DNA of 64,000 nt from Aliivibrio sp. EL58 (GTDB lineage: Bacteria > Pseudomonadota > Gammaproteobacteria > Enterobacterales > Vibrionaceae): assembly GCF_900312675.1 (NCBI RefSeq), contig NZ_OMPC01000001.1:851633-915632 (forward strand). Direction: 5' to 3'. Every line of letters begins with the position of its first letter. The stretch's first letter is position 1. A model generated the notes under the pieces. It saw only the letters and a program-made list of their open reading frames with translations, was not told where the DNA came from and ran no database searches. Position numbers and translations under genes: made by a program. Below, in pieces: positions 37,252-41,842 of the stretch.

Positions 37252-37590
37252 ATGAATAAGTGGATTGTCGTTTATTTTGCTTTTTTATTTAGTGGTTTTC
37301 TTTCTGCTGAAGAATCAAATCAGTTTGAAATTGGAAAACAAAAAGCCAAAGTATGTATGACTTGTCATGGTGCTGATGGTATTGCATTGATTGATCCCTA
37401 TCCAAACCTACGAGGCCAGCGTGCTTCTTACCTTGTGTCTGCACTAAAAGATTATAAATCCCGCGAGAGAACGAGTGGGTTAGCCATTCTAATGCAGCAA
37501 CAAGCAGATACTTTATCCAATCAAGATATGAAAGATATTGCCTACTATTACTCGATGTTAGGTTCTGAGTCTCAAGATAAAATGGAGTAA
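37252..37590 (+). CDS. Small class I cytochrome c, periplasmic
   Basis: A 112-residue exported cytochrome: signal peptide (WIVVYFAFLFSGFLSAEE), one heme site CMTCH near residue 35, and the distal methionine probably in SGLAILMQQQA. The fold resembles half of cytochrome c4 (PNLRGQRASYLVSALKDYKS). It is the first gene of the ccoN-ccoO-ccoP-like operon, 5 bp before ccoN, so it is likely an electron donor to this oxidase. Confidence 0.87.
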   Translation: MNKWIVVYFAFLFSGFLSAEESNQFEIGKQKAKVCMTCHGADGIALIDPYPNLRGQRASYLVSALKDYKSRERTSGLAILMQQQADTLSNQDMKDIAYYYSMLGSESQDKME

Positions 37591-37595
37591 AGGCG

Positions 37596-39011
37596 ATGAC
37601 AGATATCAGGGATTACGATACAAAAGTTGTACGCTATTTTATTATTGCCGCAGTTATTTGGGCCGTTATTGGCATGAGCGTTGGCGTCATACTCGCCGCC
37701 CAGCTTTATTGGCCATCACTCAATTTTGATTCACAATATTTTCAGTTTGGACGGTTGAGACCACTGCATACCTCGGGTGTTATTTTTGGTTTCGTCGTCA
37801 ATATATTAATGGGGACCTCGCTGTATATTGTTCAACGAACAAGTAAAATTGAGTTATTTAATAAAAGCCTGTCTTGGATGGTGTTCTGGGGATGGCAGTT
37901 TATTTTAATTCTCGCCTTGATAACCCTCCCATTAGGATACACAACCACCAAAGAATACGCCGAATTAGAGTGGCCAATCGATATATTAATCGCCTTAGTT
38001 TGGGTGCTTTATGCGGTCTTGTTCTTCGGTACTATTGCGAAACGAACCGTCAGCCATATCTTTGTTGCCAATTGGTTTTTCGGGGCATTTATTCTCGTTA
38101 TCGCGATGATTTTCATTATTAATAATTTGGCATTACCCGTGTCGATGTGGAAATCTTATTCTGTTTATGCAGGTGCGCAAGATGCCATTGTTCAGTGGTG
38201 GTGGGGTCACAATGCAGTAGGTTTCTTGTTAACAGCGGGCATTATTGCCATGAACTACTACTTCATTCCTAAAGTGTCAGAACGTCCTATTTATTCCTAC
38301 CGTTTATCTATCATTCATTTTTGGGGATTAGTAGGCTTTTATACATGGGCAGGAACGCATCATCTGATCTATTCCTCTGTACCAGAGTGGGTGCAAAATA
38401 TTGGTATAGTTATGTCGCTGATTTTGTGGATCCCATCATGGGCAGGCGCATTTAATAGTGCGATGACCTTACTTTCTAACAAAGCAAAACTGAAAAAAGA
38501 CTACATTATGTTGTTCTTTTTCTCGGCCATTCTTTATTACTGTCTAGCGACGTTTGAAGGGCCATTATTGGCGATTCGTTGGTTTAATATGGTTGCTCAT
38601 AATACCGAGTGGATCATTGGTCATGTGCATTCTGCTGCCTTAGGTTGGGTTGGTATGTCTGCCATTGCTGTATTTTATTACTTTATTCCTCGTTTATGGG
38701 GAAAAGAAGATCTGTGGTCACTCCGTCTATTAAAATGGCATTTCTGGTTCGCTCATATTGGGGTTGCTCTTTATGCTATTGCCCTATGGGTTGCAGGGAT
38801 TGGTGAAGGGTACATGTGGCTTACCCAGCTAGATAATGGCTCACTCGCTTACAGTTTTGTGGAAGCGATGGACTTTAAAGCGCCGTGGTTGTTTGTTCGA
38901 TTCCTTGGTGGTGTGTTCTTTGTCGTCGGTTTATTGATGATGGTCTTTAATCTGTATAAAACGGTTACCTCAAATTCGGTTCCCACGGCAGCAATGGAGG
39001 GTAAATCATGA
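37596..39011 (+). CDS. ccoN: cbb3-type cytochrome c oxidase subunit I (CcoN)
   Basis: A 471-residue, twelve-helix heme-copper oxidase subunit. Conserved histidines for heme and copper are visible in LRPLHTSGVIFGF, WWWGHNAVGFLLT, GTHHLIYS, EWIIGHVHSAALGW and WHFWFAHIGVALY. It reduces oxygen to water with high affinity, in the inner membrane. It is followed by ccoO with a 4-base overlap. No ccoQ, ccoG, ccoH, ccoI or ccoS genes are nearby, so assembly factors must come from elsewhere in the genome. Confidence 0.93.
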   Translation: MTDIRDYDTKVVRYFIIAAVIWAVIGMSVGVILAAQLYWPSLNFDSQYFQFGRLRPLHTSGVIFGFVVNILMGTSLYIVQRTSKIELFNKSLSWMVFWGWQFILILALITLPLGYTTTKEYAELEWPIDILIALVWVLYAVLFFGTIAKRTVSHIFVANWFFGAFILVIAMIFIINNLALPVSMWKSYSVYAGAQDAIVQWWWGHNAVGFLLTAGIIAMNYYFIPKVSERPIYSYRLSIIHFWGLVGFYTWAGTHHLIYSSVPEWVQNIGIVMSLILWIPSWAGAFNSAMTLLSNKAKLKKDYIMLFFFSAILYYCLATFEGPLLAIRWFNMVAHNTEWIIGHVHSAALGWVGMSAIAVFYYFIPRLWGKEDLWSLRLLKWHFWFAHIGVALYAIALWVAGIGEGYMWLTQLDNGSLAYSFVEAMDFKAPWLFVRFLGGVFFVVGLLMMVFNLYKTVTSNSVPTAAMEGKS

Positions 39012-39625
39012 TCTTAAGTAAAGACTTTACCCAATCGGTGTTCATTTTAATTCTTTCAACGGTTATTGTTGCCTCTTTTTCGTTGTTAGTTTGGGTCGTT
39101 CCTAATGTGTTTATGGCCTCGGATTTGAAGAAAATATCCTTGGCTAAACCACTGACGGCGATTGAACTTGCAGGACGAGATATTTATATCAGCGAAGGGT
39201 GTCATGTTTGTCATACTCAAATGGTGCGTCCGTTAGAAGCAGAAATACTGCGTAATGGCCGTGCCAATAAAGAAGCCGATGATATTTATGAGTTTCCAAA
39301 TTTATGGGGTTCAAAACGTACCGGTCCTGATTTGACGAACATGGGGCGTAAGTATTCAGATCAATGGCATGTGATTCATTTAATGGACCCTCGTAATGTG
39401 GTGCCAACCTCTATCATGCCAAGCTATCCATGGTTGTTTGAACAAACGCTCGATGGAGAGGCCATTTCCGACAAAATGCGAGCGTTACGTAAGCTTGGTG
39501 TACCTTATACGGATGCAGACATTGATGGAGCTCGACTTCAAGTTATTGGGAAAACTCAAGGTGAAGCGTTAATCCGTTACTTGCAGAGCTTGGGTGTTGA
39601 TACCATGCAAGATCAGGGAGAATAA
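39008..39625 (+). CDS. ccoO: cbb3-type oxidase mono-heme subunit (CcoO)
   Basis: A 205-residue membrane-anchored cytochrome c with an N-terminal helix (FILILSTVIVASFSLLVWVV), the CcoO signature REIYISEGCHVCHTQMVRPL-like segment here read as RDIYISEGCHVCHTQM, and a distal Met in PTSIMPSYPWL. It passes electrons to CcoN. Overlaps ccoN by 4 bp and is 2 bp from the next gene, so the operon is tight. Confidence 0.93.
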   Translation: MILSKDFTQSVFILILSTVIVASFSLLVWVVPNVFMASDLKKISLAKPLTAIELAGRDIYISEGCHVCHTQMVRPLEAEILRNGRANKEADDIYEFPNLWGSKRTGPDLTNMGRKYSDQWHVIHLMDPRNVVPTSIMPSYPWLFEQTLDGEAISDKMRALRKLGVPYTDADIDGARLQVIGKTQGEALIRYLQSLGVDTMQDQGE

Positions 39626-39627
39626 TT

Positions 39628-41784
39628 ATGACTGGATTTTGGAACGTATGGGTCATTAGTCTTACTGTTATCTTCTTAGCGCTAATGGTCTATGTGGTGA
39701 TTAAATATTGGCGAACCAATCACCTTGCCGATAAAGATAAAACTATTGATTCATTTGATGATATTGATGAGAACGACGGACCACCGCCACGCATTATGTT
39801 TGTGGGCTACTTTGTCGCCTTCGCTTGCTCTTTGGTTTTCCTCGTTTTATATCCGGGGCTAGGTAATTGGCAAGGACTGTTAGGGTGGCAGCAAAGTGAT
39901 GATACGGTTCAGGATCACAATAAGTCTTTGGATGAACAAATAGCTCAATTAGGTGAGGCCGATTTAACGGTACTCACTGCCGAGCCTAATATTGTGGCTT
40001 CTGGCAAAGGGCTATTTCAAACCCATTGCGCAGCTTGTCATCGTGCTAATGGGCAAGGTCAAAAGCATTTCCCTAATTTAATTGATAATGTGTGGTTATA
40101 TGGTGGCTCTGATGATGCCATTTTGCATTCGATTCAAAAGGGACGTTATGGAGCAATGGCTGGGTGGATAAATATTCTTCCTAAAGAGGATATTCAAAAC
40201 ATCTCTTATTATCTGGCTTCTTTACAGCAGCGCCCACTTAATGCCCCTTCATTAAAGATAGATCTTGGTAAAACAGCCTTTATGAAAAGTTGCATTGCGT
40301 GTCATGGGGTAGATGCAAAAGGAAACCAAGCGATTGGGGCACCAAATCTATCTGATAATGTGTGGTTGCATGGAGGAAGCATTGAAGAAATACAGCACAC
40401 CATTAATTATGGTTTGAATAACATCATGCCTGCGTTTGAAGAACAACTCAGTGATAACGATATCCTAGCGTTAGGGGCGTTTATTACCTCTCAGCGCCTA
40501 GCTTATGATGAAAAAATGGCCGCTATTCCACAAGAGGAATTAACACAAGGCGAATACCTTGCTTATGCAGGGGATTGTGTTGCTTGTCATAGTGCAGAAG
40601 GAGGAGAACCATTTGCGGGTGGGCTGCCTTTTGTTACACCATTTGGAACTGTGTATTCAACCAATATTACGCCTCATTACACAGAAGGGATTGGTGATTA
40701 CAGTTATGAAGAATTCAAAGCGGCCCTTTATGATGGTAAAGGAAAACATGGCTACCTGTACCCTGCAATGCCTTATACGTCTTATCAATATGTGACAGAA
40801 GAAGATGTAAAAATACTGTGGGATTATTTGCAATCAATACCTGCGGTTTCACGTCGTAATGATGACAATAGCATGATGTTTCCGTCAAATATTCGATTAG
40901 GGTTGTTAGGTTGGAATATCGTATTTATGGACAGGGACCCTCTTGATTTAACCAGCAACATACCAGAAGGCTCCACAAAAGAAGAGGCGGATATTTGGGC
41001 TCGTGGTAAATATTTAGTCGCGGGGCTTGGGCATTGTTCGGAGTGTCATACGCCACGTAATATTGCTCAGGCATTAGAAACGGATAAGATCTTCCAAGGT
41101 AATATTATTGATGGTTGGAATGCGCCAGATATTTCATCTCGTGAGTTATATCAAGACCGCTGGGATATTAAATCACTGACTGATTTCTTACATACAGGGC
41201 ATTCAGATAAGGGTTCTGCTTTTGGTGGTATGGCTGATGTGATTAAGAACAGCACAAGCTTTATGACGCGTGAAGATGTAGAAGCAATGGCGACGTATCT
41301 ATTGGTGGGGGATGAAAATAATACCATTCCGCCAAATACGAAGCAGTTGCAACCGACAGGATTCACAGAAGAAGCCAAACAATCTGATATGTATTCTTTA
41401 TTTGTATCAACCTGTGGCGCATGCCATGGTGAAGACGGTAAAGGGCGAGATCCTATTGCTCCGACGTTGTTAAATAACGGTATTATCATGCACCGAGACC
41501 CATACAATACCATTGCGGTGGTCATTCGAGGGTTAGAACCAAGCTACCTTAATGAAGAAAGAAATTTTATGCCAATGGTGAGCTTCCAAAATATATTAAC
41601 GGATGCACAGTTGTCTGAATTGATTTCGTTTATTCGAGATTACCTTGGAGACCGAACTGAGGTGGTGACGACAGAAGAGGTAAAAACGGTACGAGAGAAA
41701 CTTCAACAAGCAGGTTATGCTGGGAATTTCCATACTACGCCTGACATGTACGATAAACGAGATCGTAATATCAATGTCGATTAA
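39628..41784 (+). CDS. ccoP: CcoP-like subunit fused to a triheme cytochrome: five heme c sites
   Basis: A 718-residue protein, more than twice a normal CcoP. Two N-terminal transmembrane helices (WNVWVISLTVIFLALMVYVVI and VGYFVAFACSLVFLVLYPGLG) are of CcoP type. Five CxxCH sites follow: C134-H138 (CAACH), C222 (CIACH), C317 (CVACH), C470 (CSECH) and C596 (CGACH). The first two belong to the CcoP part. The last three lie in a region that looks like the triheme cytochrome subunit of membrane-bound alcohol/gluconate dehydrogenases (FAGGLPFVTPFGTVYSTNITPH, GKHGYLYPAMPYTSYQYVTEEDV). The fusion could feed electrons from a periplasmic dehydrogenase directly into the oxidase. No dehydrogenase gene is adjacent. 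Confidence 0.9.
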   Translation: MTGFWNVWVISLTVIFLALMVYVVIKYWRTNHLADKDKTIDSFDDIDENDGPPPRIMFVGYFVAFACSLVFLVLYPGLGNWQGLLGWQQSDDTVQDHNKSLDEQIAQLGEADLTVLTAEPNIVASGKGLFQTHCAACHRANGQGQKHFPNLIDNVWLYGGSDDAILHSIQKGRYGAMAGWINILPKEDIQNISYYLASLQQRPLNAPSLKIDLGKTAFMKSCIACHGVDAKGNQAIGAPNLSDNVWLHGGSIEEIQHTINYGLNNIMPAFEEQLSDNDILALGAFITSQRLAYDEKMAAIPQEELTQGEYLAYAGDCVACHSAEGGEPFAGGLPFVTPFGTVYSTNITPHYTEGIGDYSYEEFKAALYDGKGKHGYLYPAMPYTSYQYVTEEDVKILWDYLQSIPAVSRRNDDNSMMFPSNIRLGLLGWNIVFMDRDPLDLTSNIPEGSTKEEADIWARGKYLVAGLGHCSECHTPRNIAQALETDKIFQGNIIDGWNAPDISSRELYQDRWDIKSLTDFLHTGHSDKGSAFGGMADVIKNSTSFMTREDVEAMATYLLVGDENNTIPPNTKQLQPTGFTEEAKQSDMYSLFVSTCGACHGEDGKGRDPIAPTLLNNGIIMHRDPYNTIAVVIRGLEPSYLNEERNFMPMVSFQNILTDAQLSELISFIRDYLGDRTEVVTTEEVKTVREKLQQAGYAGNFHTTPDMYDKRDRNINVD

Positions 41785-41817: not shown

Positions 41818-41842
41818 AAAAGCCGATCATATGATCGGCTTT
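41818..41842. terminator. Bidirectional terminator after the oxidase operon
   Basis: GCCGATCAT/ATGATCGGC is a perfect palindrome at 41822-41839 with AAAA before and TTT after, so it can act in both directions between the oxidase operon and the convergent peptidase gene. Confidence 0.85.

Follow-up and report, generated by a model that had tools for sequence, protein, structure and literature searches.

A predicted five-heme CcoP in Vibrionaceae joins a cbb3 oxidase subunit to a dehydrogenase-type triheme cytochrome

In a window of 64,000 nucleotides from Aliivibrio sp. EL58 (the whole stretch of DNA analyzed here; contig NZ_OMPC01000001.1, positions 851,633 to 915,632), four tightly packed genes (window positions 37252-41784, +) encode a c-type cytochrome of 112 amino acids (aa), CcoN, CcoO, and a CcoP that is 718 aa long. 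Our sequence analysis indicates that this CcoP is a five-heme protein, in which a cbb3 oxidase subunit is fused to a triheme cytochrome of the kind found in membrane-bound dehydrogenases, and that it belongs to a four-gene cassette conserved in changing surroundings. We tentatively propose that the resulting oxidase is fed mainly by c-type cytochromes. Genomes and loci that need to be told apart are given by our own G and L numbers, G000 being the genome of the window.

Results

The 718-residue CcoP is predicted to consist of two cytochromes

When the two halves of the 718-aa protein (39628..41784, +) are searched separately, they match different families, which bears out the proposal of an initial annotation of this DNA that a CcoP is fused here to a dehydrogenase-type triheme cytochrome. 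The CxxCH motifs at residues 134, 222, 317, 470, and 596 are those it had listed, and its coordinates and reading frames were also correct. Residues 1-300 scanned alone match FixP_N and the ccoP model, and the 718-aa protein scores 203 bits against the latter (TIGR00782; cut-off 180, i.e., 179.95), with residues 38-287 as the best stretch. The membrane part with FixP_N (residues 1-95, 39628..39912, +; PF14715, 4.1e-7 in the scan of residues 1-300) contains two hydrophobic segments, at about residues 1-28 and 54-81, and is followed by CcoP heme domains 1 and 2 (residues 119-292, 39982..40503, +), which match TIGR00782 and hold C134 and C222 with candidate distal Met at 177 and 267. A short joint (residues 293-304, 40504..40539, +) leads to the triheme module (residues 305-680, 40540..41667, +), which holds C317, C470, and C596 with candidate distal Met at 381, 535, and 648. 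The C-terminal tail (residues 681-718, 41668..41781, +) has no membrane anchor by hydropathy, and no anchor was found anywhere past residue 81, where no 19-residue stretch has a mean hydropathy above 1.6.

Scanned alone, residues 301-718 hit cytochrome c domains of a general kind in Pfam, and their matches to NCBIfam models are weak. In the PDB, the counterparts of residues 305-689 are cytochrome subunits of dehydrogenases acting on glucose, alcohol, fructose, and aldehyde (8hdd_B, 8gy2_B, 7w2j_C, and 8gy3_A; best 9.4e-61, to 8hdd_B with the C-terminal half alone), with matches that span almost the full length. With these the triheme part shares its three c-type heme domains, each with one CxxCH and one candidate distal Met; unlike them, it is fused to an oxidase subunit and has no catalytic subunit beside it. 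On the strength of these matches, residues 1-292 are predicted to be a normal di-heme CcoP, and residues 305-689 a dehydrogenase-type triheme cytochrome. The nearly whole-length match to dehydrogenase trihemes rules out that the extra hemes are copies of CcoP's own domains. Compared with canonical di-heme CcoP/FixP (PDB 3mk7_C and 8smr_G), the protein has in common the membrane part, the two heme domains (residues 1-288), and an operon with ccoN and ccoO, but it has five CxxCH in 718 residues rather than two c hemes in about 300; in addition, there is no space for a ccoQ gene between ccoO and ccoP, and no oxidase-assembly gene lies among the seven neighboring genes.

The fusion is widespread and its triheme part is well conserved

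The same fusion is found in other Vibrionaceae: it is encoded in one frame in 94 of 296 genomes of the family (G000 included), with two more genomes holding a split copy. The other family copies are 54 to 98% identical to that of the window. For 11 of these 94 copies the match is interrupted, both pieces lying in a single longer frame; in G030 the single TGA is the gene's own stop, after a protein of 702 residues with five hemes. Several copies sit in genomes assembled into two or three contigs, which together with their number rules out an assembly or sequencing join of two genes. Split copies of the fusion occur at L065, L066, and L093 (G201, G114, and Vibrio maritimus, respectively), through either decay or sequencing error.

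All five CxxCH and the candidate distal Met of each heme, a role assigned from position, are invariant in all 26 aligned copies. Mean pairwise identity among 19 copies is 73, 67, and 65% in the three triheme domains, 61 and 53% in the two CcoP heme domains, and 55% in the membrane part; the 12-residue joint, at 28.8%, is the lowest of nine regions. Since the triheme domains are better conserved than the CcoP heme domains, the added part is under selection, and its conservation is no weaker than that of the remaining subunit.

A scan of named genomes gave the best 79 loci from at least 569 relatives, 28 of which hold the fusion; among the matches listed, these 28 come from 17 Vibrio, 5 Photobacterium, one Vibrionales isolate, 4 Shewanella, and one uncultured Microbulbifer. 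In the remaining 51 loci, the match lies mainly in the triheme part; some of them have additional matching pieces in the CcoP heme region. The match also covers part of that region at L120, L124-L126, L129, L136, L140, L143, L145, and L146, all from other Proteobacteria, and at L140, L145, and L146 a separate diheme cytochrome gene adjoins the triheme gene; these loci are possibly unfused relatives of such an arrangement. In three wider samples, which overlap and in which scoring was limited to the two or three top candidates of each genome, a match to the fusion protein was found in one of 369 genomes of the class, the window's own (E 1e-85), in 18 of 394 genomes of the order (E 1e-110; 15 in the same family and three in two other families), and in 8 of 398 genomes of the phylum (E 1e-85), namely five fusions, all from the same family, and three stand-alone trihemes.

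The cassette encodes a cbb3-type oxidase and a small cytochrome c

The ccoN gene (37596..39011, +) encodes a catalytic subunit that scores 594.6 bits against TIGR00780 (cut-off 583.15) and matches cbb3 subunit I in the PDB at 2.2e-173. Its residues H58, H205, Y249, H255, H256, H343, and H345 are invariant in 37 of 37 aligned CcoN; we take the six His to be candidate ligands of the heme and CuB metals, and Tyr249 the active-site tyrosine. The ccoO gene (39008..39625, +), which overlaps ccoN by four bases, encodes the mono-heme subunit (PF02433, 7.8e-64; TIGR00781, 207.1 bits with a cut-off of 200.65). With CcoN, CcoO, and CcoP encoded together and each above its family cut-off, the operon is assigned by sequence to the cbb3-type (C-type) heme-copper oxidases. 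The first gene of the cassette (37252..37590, +) encodes a monoheme cytochrome c with a hydrophobic, signal-like start, which resembles cytochrome c554 (PDB 2zzs_A, 2.2e-23), c552 (1cno_A), and c4 (6q2u_A). The operon total is seven c hemes (five, one, and one), the number given in the initial annotation.

That annotation had also called this a second cbb3 operon, and indeed a single further ccoN is present in G000 (4.3 Mb in 12 contigs, listed as 100% complete), at C12:528021-529394, in a cluster (L056) with a two-heme CcoP of 323 aa. The two CcoN are 53% identical. In a quick tree, the fusion-linked CcoN group together (31 rows, local support 84), apart from three canonical CcoN. Beside this five-heme-type group, as its sister, sit the CcoN of a related oxidase from three other genomes (L042:15197-18663, L058:7619-11101, and L059:8123-11617), in which ccoN and ccoO are followed by a CcoP of 484-489 aa with four CxxCH.

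The four genes occur together in 26 of 26 fusion loci of one set and 28 of 28 of the named-genome set, whether the fusion is intact or split. The small cytochrome adjoins the fusion operon in every one of these loci (at L074 it was found by tblastn). The flanks of the cassette are common within clades and differ between clades, and no neighbor beyond the four genes is conserved across clades at the fusion loci of either set. In the genus of the window, the cassette stands at two nearby places among the same neighbors (the window, as against L036 and L037), and 8 of 14 searched genomes are without it. The cassette is self-contained: only the four-gene unit is conserved, in changing surroundings. 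In G130 (L038:8914-19586), the cassette has as its divergent neighbor a molybdenum (XDH-like) operon that includes a 2Fe-2S subunit, a triheme of its own, and an XdhC-like protein; Pfam finds MoCoBD_1, MoCoBD_2, 2Fe-2S, and XdhC there.

The triheme part most likely derives from a molybdenum enzyme

In a tree of 58 trihemes, for which the program warned of long branches (L112_6 and L138_4), all 13 fused trihemes form one clade (100/100), which suggests that the fusion arose once. This clade joins the trihemes of XDH-like molybdenum operons (100/100), among which fall 17 of the 18 rows labeled as molybdenum-type; the remaining one, L068_12, lies elsewhere. The 16 rows that neighbor a GMC-sized gene fall in a separate group, together with 11 rows of unassigned type. 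The "GMC-like" label reflects how large the upstream gene is; a check of four of the 16 showed each to be a GMC protein (32-41 bits for PF00732). The stand-alone trihemes were drawn from the same family and from the hits of two peptide patterns taken from the fused protein; no set was labeled as PQQ-type (pyrroloquinoline quinone).

The triheme part most likely originates from a molybdenum enzyme, of aldehyde-dehydrogenase type to judge from the family, rather than from a gluconate-type one. The initial annotation, which had likened the region to alcohol or gluconate dehydrogenases, was right about a dehydrogenase-type triheme, but the fused trihemes group with molybdenum (XDH-family) operons and not with GMC (gluconate-type) ones, a derivation from which the tree does not support within its sampling. 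The closest triheme relatives, at 36-43% identity and in the same tree group, are stand-alone trihemes of molybdenum operons in Vibrionaceae, Shewanella, and Microbulbifer (L038, L062-L064, L097, L099-L106, and L116). There, in contrast to the fusion, the triheme is a separate gene beside the catalytic subunits, and the operon has a 2Fe-2S subunit.

No known class of partner dehydrogenase appears to be required

We surveyed 54 genomes of the family, hand-picked for spread, of which 27 carry the fusion and 27 do not. Molybdenum enzymes (PF02738) occur in 14 of the 27 carriers and 9 of the 27 others, and in none of 14 genomes of the window's genus. A GMC match of any strength (PF00732) was found in 18 carriers versus 16 fusion-free genomes, and a strong one in 14 of each. 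Because genuine GMC proteins beside trihemes elsewhere score as little as 32-41 bits for PF00732, the weak matches (for example, in G221 and G130) may be real partners; in G000 alone was the GMC protein identified further. The cut-off of the PQQ alcohol dehydrogenase model (TIGR03075) was exceeded in none of the carriers and two of the fusion-free genomes. Most of its other listed matches are weak and fall in frames about 385-412 aa long, which we take as BamB; G011, G073, and G079 have matches of intermediate strength in larger frames. The aldose-dehydrogenase class (PF07995), searched in 21 of the 54 genomes, is absent from the 14 of the window's genus and from G124 and present in five Vibrio and one Photobacterium.

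As for G000 itself, it has no match to PF02738 or PF07995, and TIGR03075 gives weak matches only (best 2.8e-10, 40 bits with a cut-off of 480; the one listed is in a 385-aa frame, likewise taken as BamB). Its sole GMC protein is the choline dehydrogenase BetA, beside BetB and BetI. The search for a partner dehydrogenase elsewhere in this genome was consequently negative for all four classes, BetA aside. Seven of the 27 carriers (G029, G044, G057, G124, G202, G285, and G271) are without any molybdenum, GMC, or PQQ-alcohol match, weak ones included; G202, G285, and G271 have PF07995, while G029, G044, G057, and G124 match none of the four classes. Nor is the triheme part encoded with a molybdenum, GMC, or PQQ catalytic subunit, either among the seven neighbors in the window or as a conserved neighbor outside the cassette. 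Since seven carriers match none of three classes and four match none of four, the fusion can be retained without any of the known partner classes.

Electron donor of the five-heme oxidase

The reading that we favor, tentatively and as a little short of probable, is that the system is a cytochrome c:O2 oxidase of the cbb3 type with an extended five-heme input arm that draws its electrons chiefly from c-type cytochromes, the co-encoded one among them. The bc1 complex and other periplasmic donors would reduce periplasmic c-type cytochromes, which would be available in every host. These, first of all the co-encoded one, would hand electrons to the outermost triheme domain (heme of C596), from which, following the order of the chain, they would pass through the hemes of C470, C317, C222, and C134 to CcoO and on to heme b3-CuB of CcoN. 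The donor would not be a dedicated dehydrogenase of the known triheme-partner classes, and the extra hemes may extend the reach of the arm, store more electrons, or offer a second place to dock. Several observations favor such a donor. The small c554/c552/c4-type cytochrome is the only candidate partner present at all fusion loci examined, a cbb3 oxidase and cytochrome c4 occur together in PDB entries 8smr and 8snh, the bc1 cytochrome c1 is encoded in 54 of 54 genomes tested, and the usual partner classes are missing from G000 and, for three of them, from seven of the 27 carriers.

The docking site is suggested by conservation. In the glucose dehydrogenase of Burkholderia cepacia, the third heme region was identified by modeling as the contact of flavin adenine dinucleotide (PMC6472588). 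Identities in domains 1 to 3 are 61, 50, and 39.6% in 14 molybdenum-type trihemes, where domain 3 is least conserved, and 72, 66, and 65.6% in the 13 fused ones, where domain 3 is as conserved as domain 2. (Four of 18 molybdenum-type rows, L068_12, L112_6, L112_10, and L131_5, and one of 16 GMC-like rows, L138_4, were left out.) Domain 3 gains more over the molybdenum type than the other domains do (18 of 10000 column permutations), most strongly in 15-residue windows starting at 609-620, which cover residues 609-634. We read this as an old dehydrogenase dock, the outermost domain 3, that may have become the dock for one fixed new partner.

Several points weigh against the cytochrome-fed oxidase with a repurposed dock. 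Ordinary CcoP already accepts electrons from a c-type cytochrome, so the benefit of the triheme would be unexplained if such a cytochrome were the donor, and a dehydrogenase of a class other than those searched could serve all carriers. Twenty of the 27 carriers do have a match of some strength in one or more of three partner classes, and stand-alone trihemes are somewhat commoner in carriers (10 of 96 versus 6 of 200, p 0.012; 12 versus 10, p 0.031, with six weaker genomes added), both comparisons being uncorrected for kinship. In G130, the molybdenum operon that adjoins the cassette brings its own triheme. Domain 3 is also well conserved in GMC-type trihemes (63.6%), and the 10-row Vibrionaceae/Shewanella subclade of the molybdenum type gives 68, 55, and 46.6%; the compared groups, moreover, differ in age, and the permutation shuffles columns only, ignoring the tree.

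Another possible donor is a periplasmic dehydrogenase, of an unrecognized class or replaced from species to species, that would dock on the triheme and send electrons straight into the oxidase. The solved relatives of the triheme are dehydrogenase subunits, the nearest ones stand in molybdenum operons, one of which adjoins the cassette in G130, most carriers in the survey match some partner class, and domain 3 has strongly fixed residues. We nevertheless consider this somewhat unlikely, given that G000 offers nothing but weak TIGR03075 matches and BetA as its only GMC protein, the absence of the three classes from seven carriers, the lack of a conserved neighbor beyond the four genes across clades, and the fact that the stand-alone operons seen keep a triheme of their own. 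The direct path from a periplasmic dehydrogenase that the initial annotation had envisaged is thus weakly supported, with no likely partner in G000 and four carriers lacking all four classes; its statement that no dehydrogenase gene is adjacent holds, as none was found in a Pfam scan of the seven neighbors. The bypass of bc1 that it had drawn from this path finds no genomic support, the bc1 cytochrome c1 being present in 54 of 54 genomes tested.

The same ubiquity of cytochrome c1 bears on a quinol donor. In acetic acid bacteria, ubiquinone receives electrons from triheme subunits of this family, and if that reaction ran in reverse, the triheme would oxidize quinol directly and make a bc1-independent, quinol-oxidizing cbb3; a self-contained cassette in genomes without a known partner dehydrogenase would suit so universal a donor. 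With bc1 at hand in all genomes tested, a shuttle-type cytochrome co-encoded in every fusion locus examined, and no membrane anchor near the triheme except the CcoP helices, this appears quite improbable. More broadly, the idea that the triheme lets cbb3 draw directly on a donor new to it, be it quinol or an unrecognized periplasmic dehydrogenase common to the carriers, docked on domain 3 and allowing high-affinity respiration without bc1, strikes us as unlikely. Finally, the triheme might be a passive leftover of the gene fusion, tolerated and without a role of its own, for which the split copies in G201, G114, and L093 could speak. That no other part of the protein is as well conserved as its domains, and that the heme sites stay invariant across 26 copies down to 54% identity to that of the window, makes this very improbable.

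Surroundings of the cassette in the window

The cassette has a G+C content of 41.5%, versus 37.9% for the window. Its seven neighbors encode, by Pfam, an ArsR regulator, a bile-acid-symporter-family protein, a protein with a weak DUF948 match, a zinc carboxypeptidase, an aminotransferase, and two proteins without a match. Downstream of ccoP, a perfect palindrome of 22 bases followed by an AT-rich stretch (41820..41841, +), noticed by eye, is a possible, unproven transcript end; it is absent from the output of the terminator scan. The promoter and terminator scan of the window did no better than on shuffled sequence. The window has 10 one-mismatch matches to FNR sites, none of them upstream of the operon, and at least as many were found in 19 of 100 shuffles.

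Discussion

Extension of CcoP by fusion is already known, since the tri-heme CcoP of Neisseria (PMC2924362) carries an extra C-terminal domain that comes from cytochrome c5 and follows an Ala/Ser/Pro-rich region; it is linked to nitrite reduction. The two proteins have in common a CcoP extended at its C terminus by a fused c-type domain of another cytochrome, but the Neisseria type differs from the fusion reported here, which contains a complete three-domain triheme of dehydrogenase type behind a joint of about 12 residues. Titles and opening lines of abstracts listed for CcoP or cbb3 in the open literature, subscription papers and preprints aside, yielded no description of a five-heme CcoP or of a fusion with a dehydrogenase triheme; from what was available of them, PMC3669370 concerns another cbb3 gene, PBPRA1834, and PMC10715153 has no CcoP in it.

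A CcoP covalently joined to an electron carrier is also seen in PDB 6xkx_p, a chain of 474 residues whose molecule name joins CcoP and cytochrome cy. We presume this chimera to be man-made. The five-heme fusion is common, being present in about one-third of the 296 sampled genomes of the family, as well as in Shewanella and a Microbulbifer, and in G000 the five-heme cbb3 comes on top of an ordinary one. An oxidase with a covalently captured electron-transfer subunit of dehydrogenase type would be an example of how respiratory chains are rewired by module capture.

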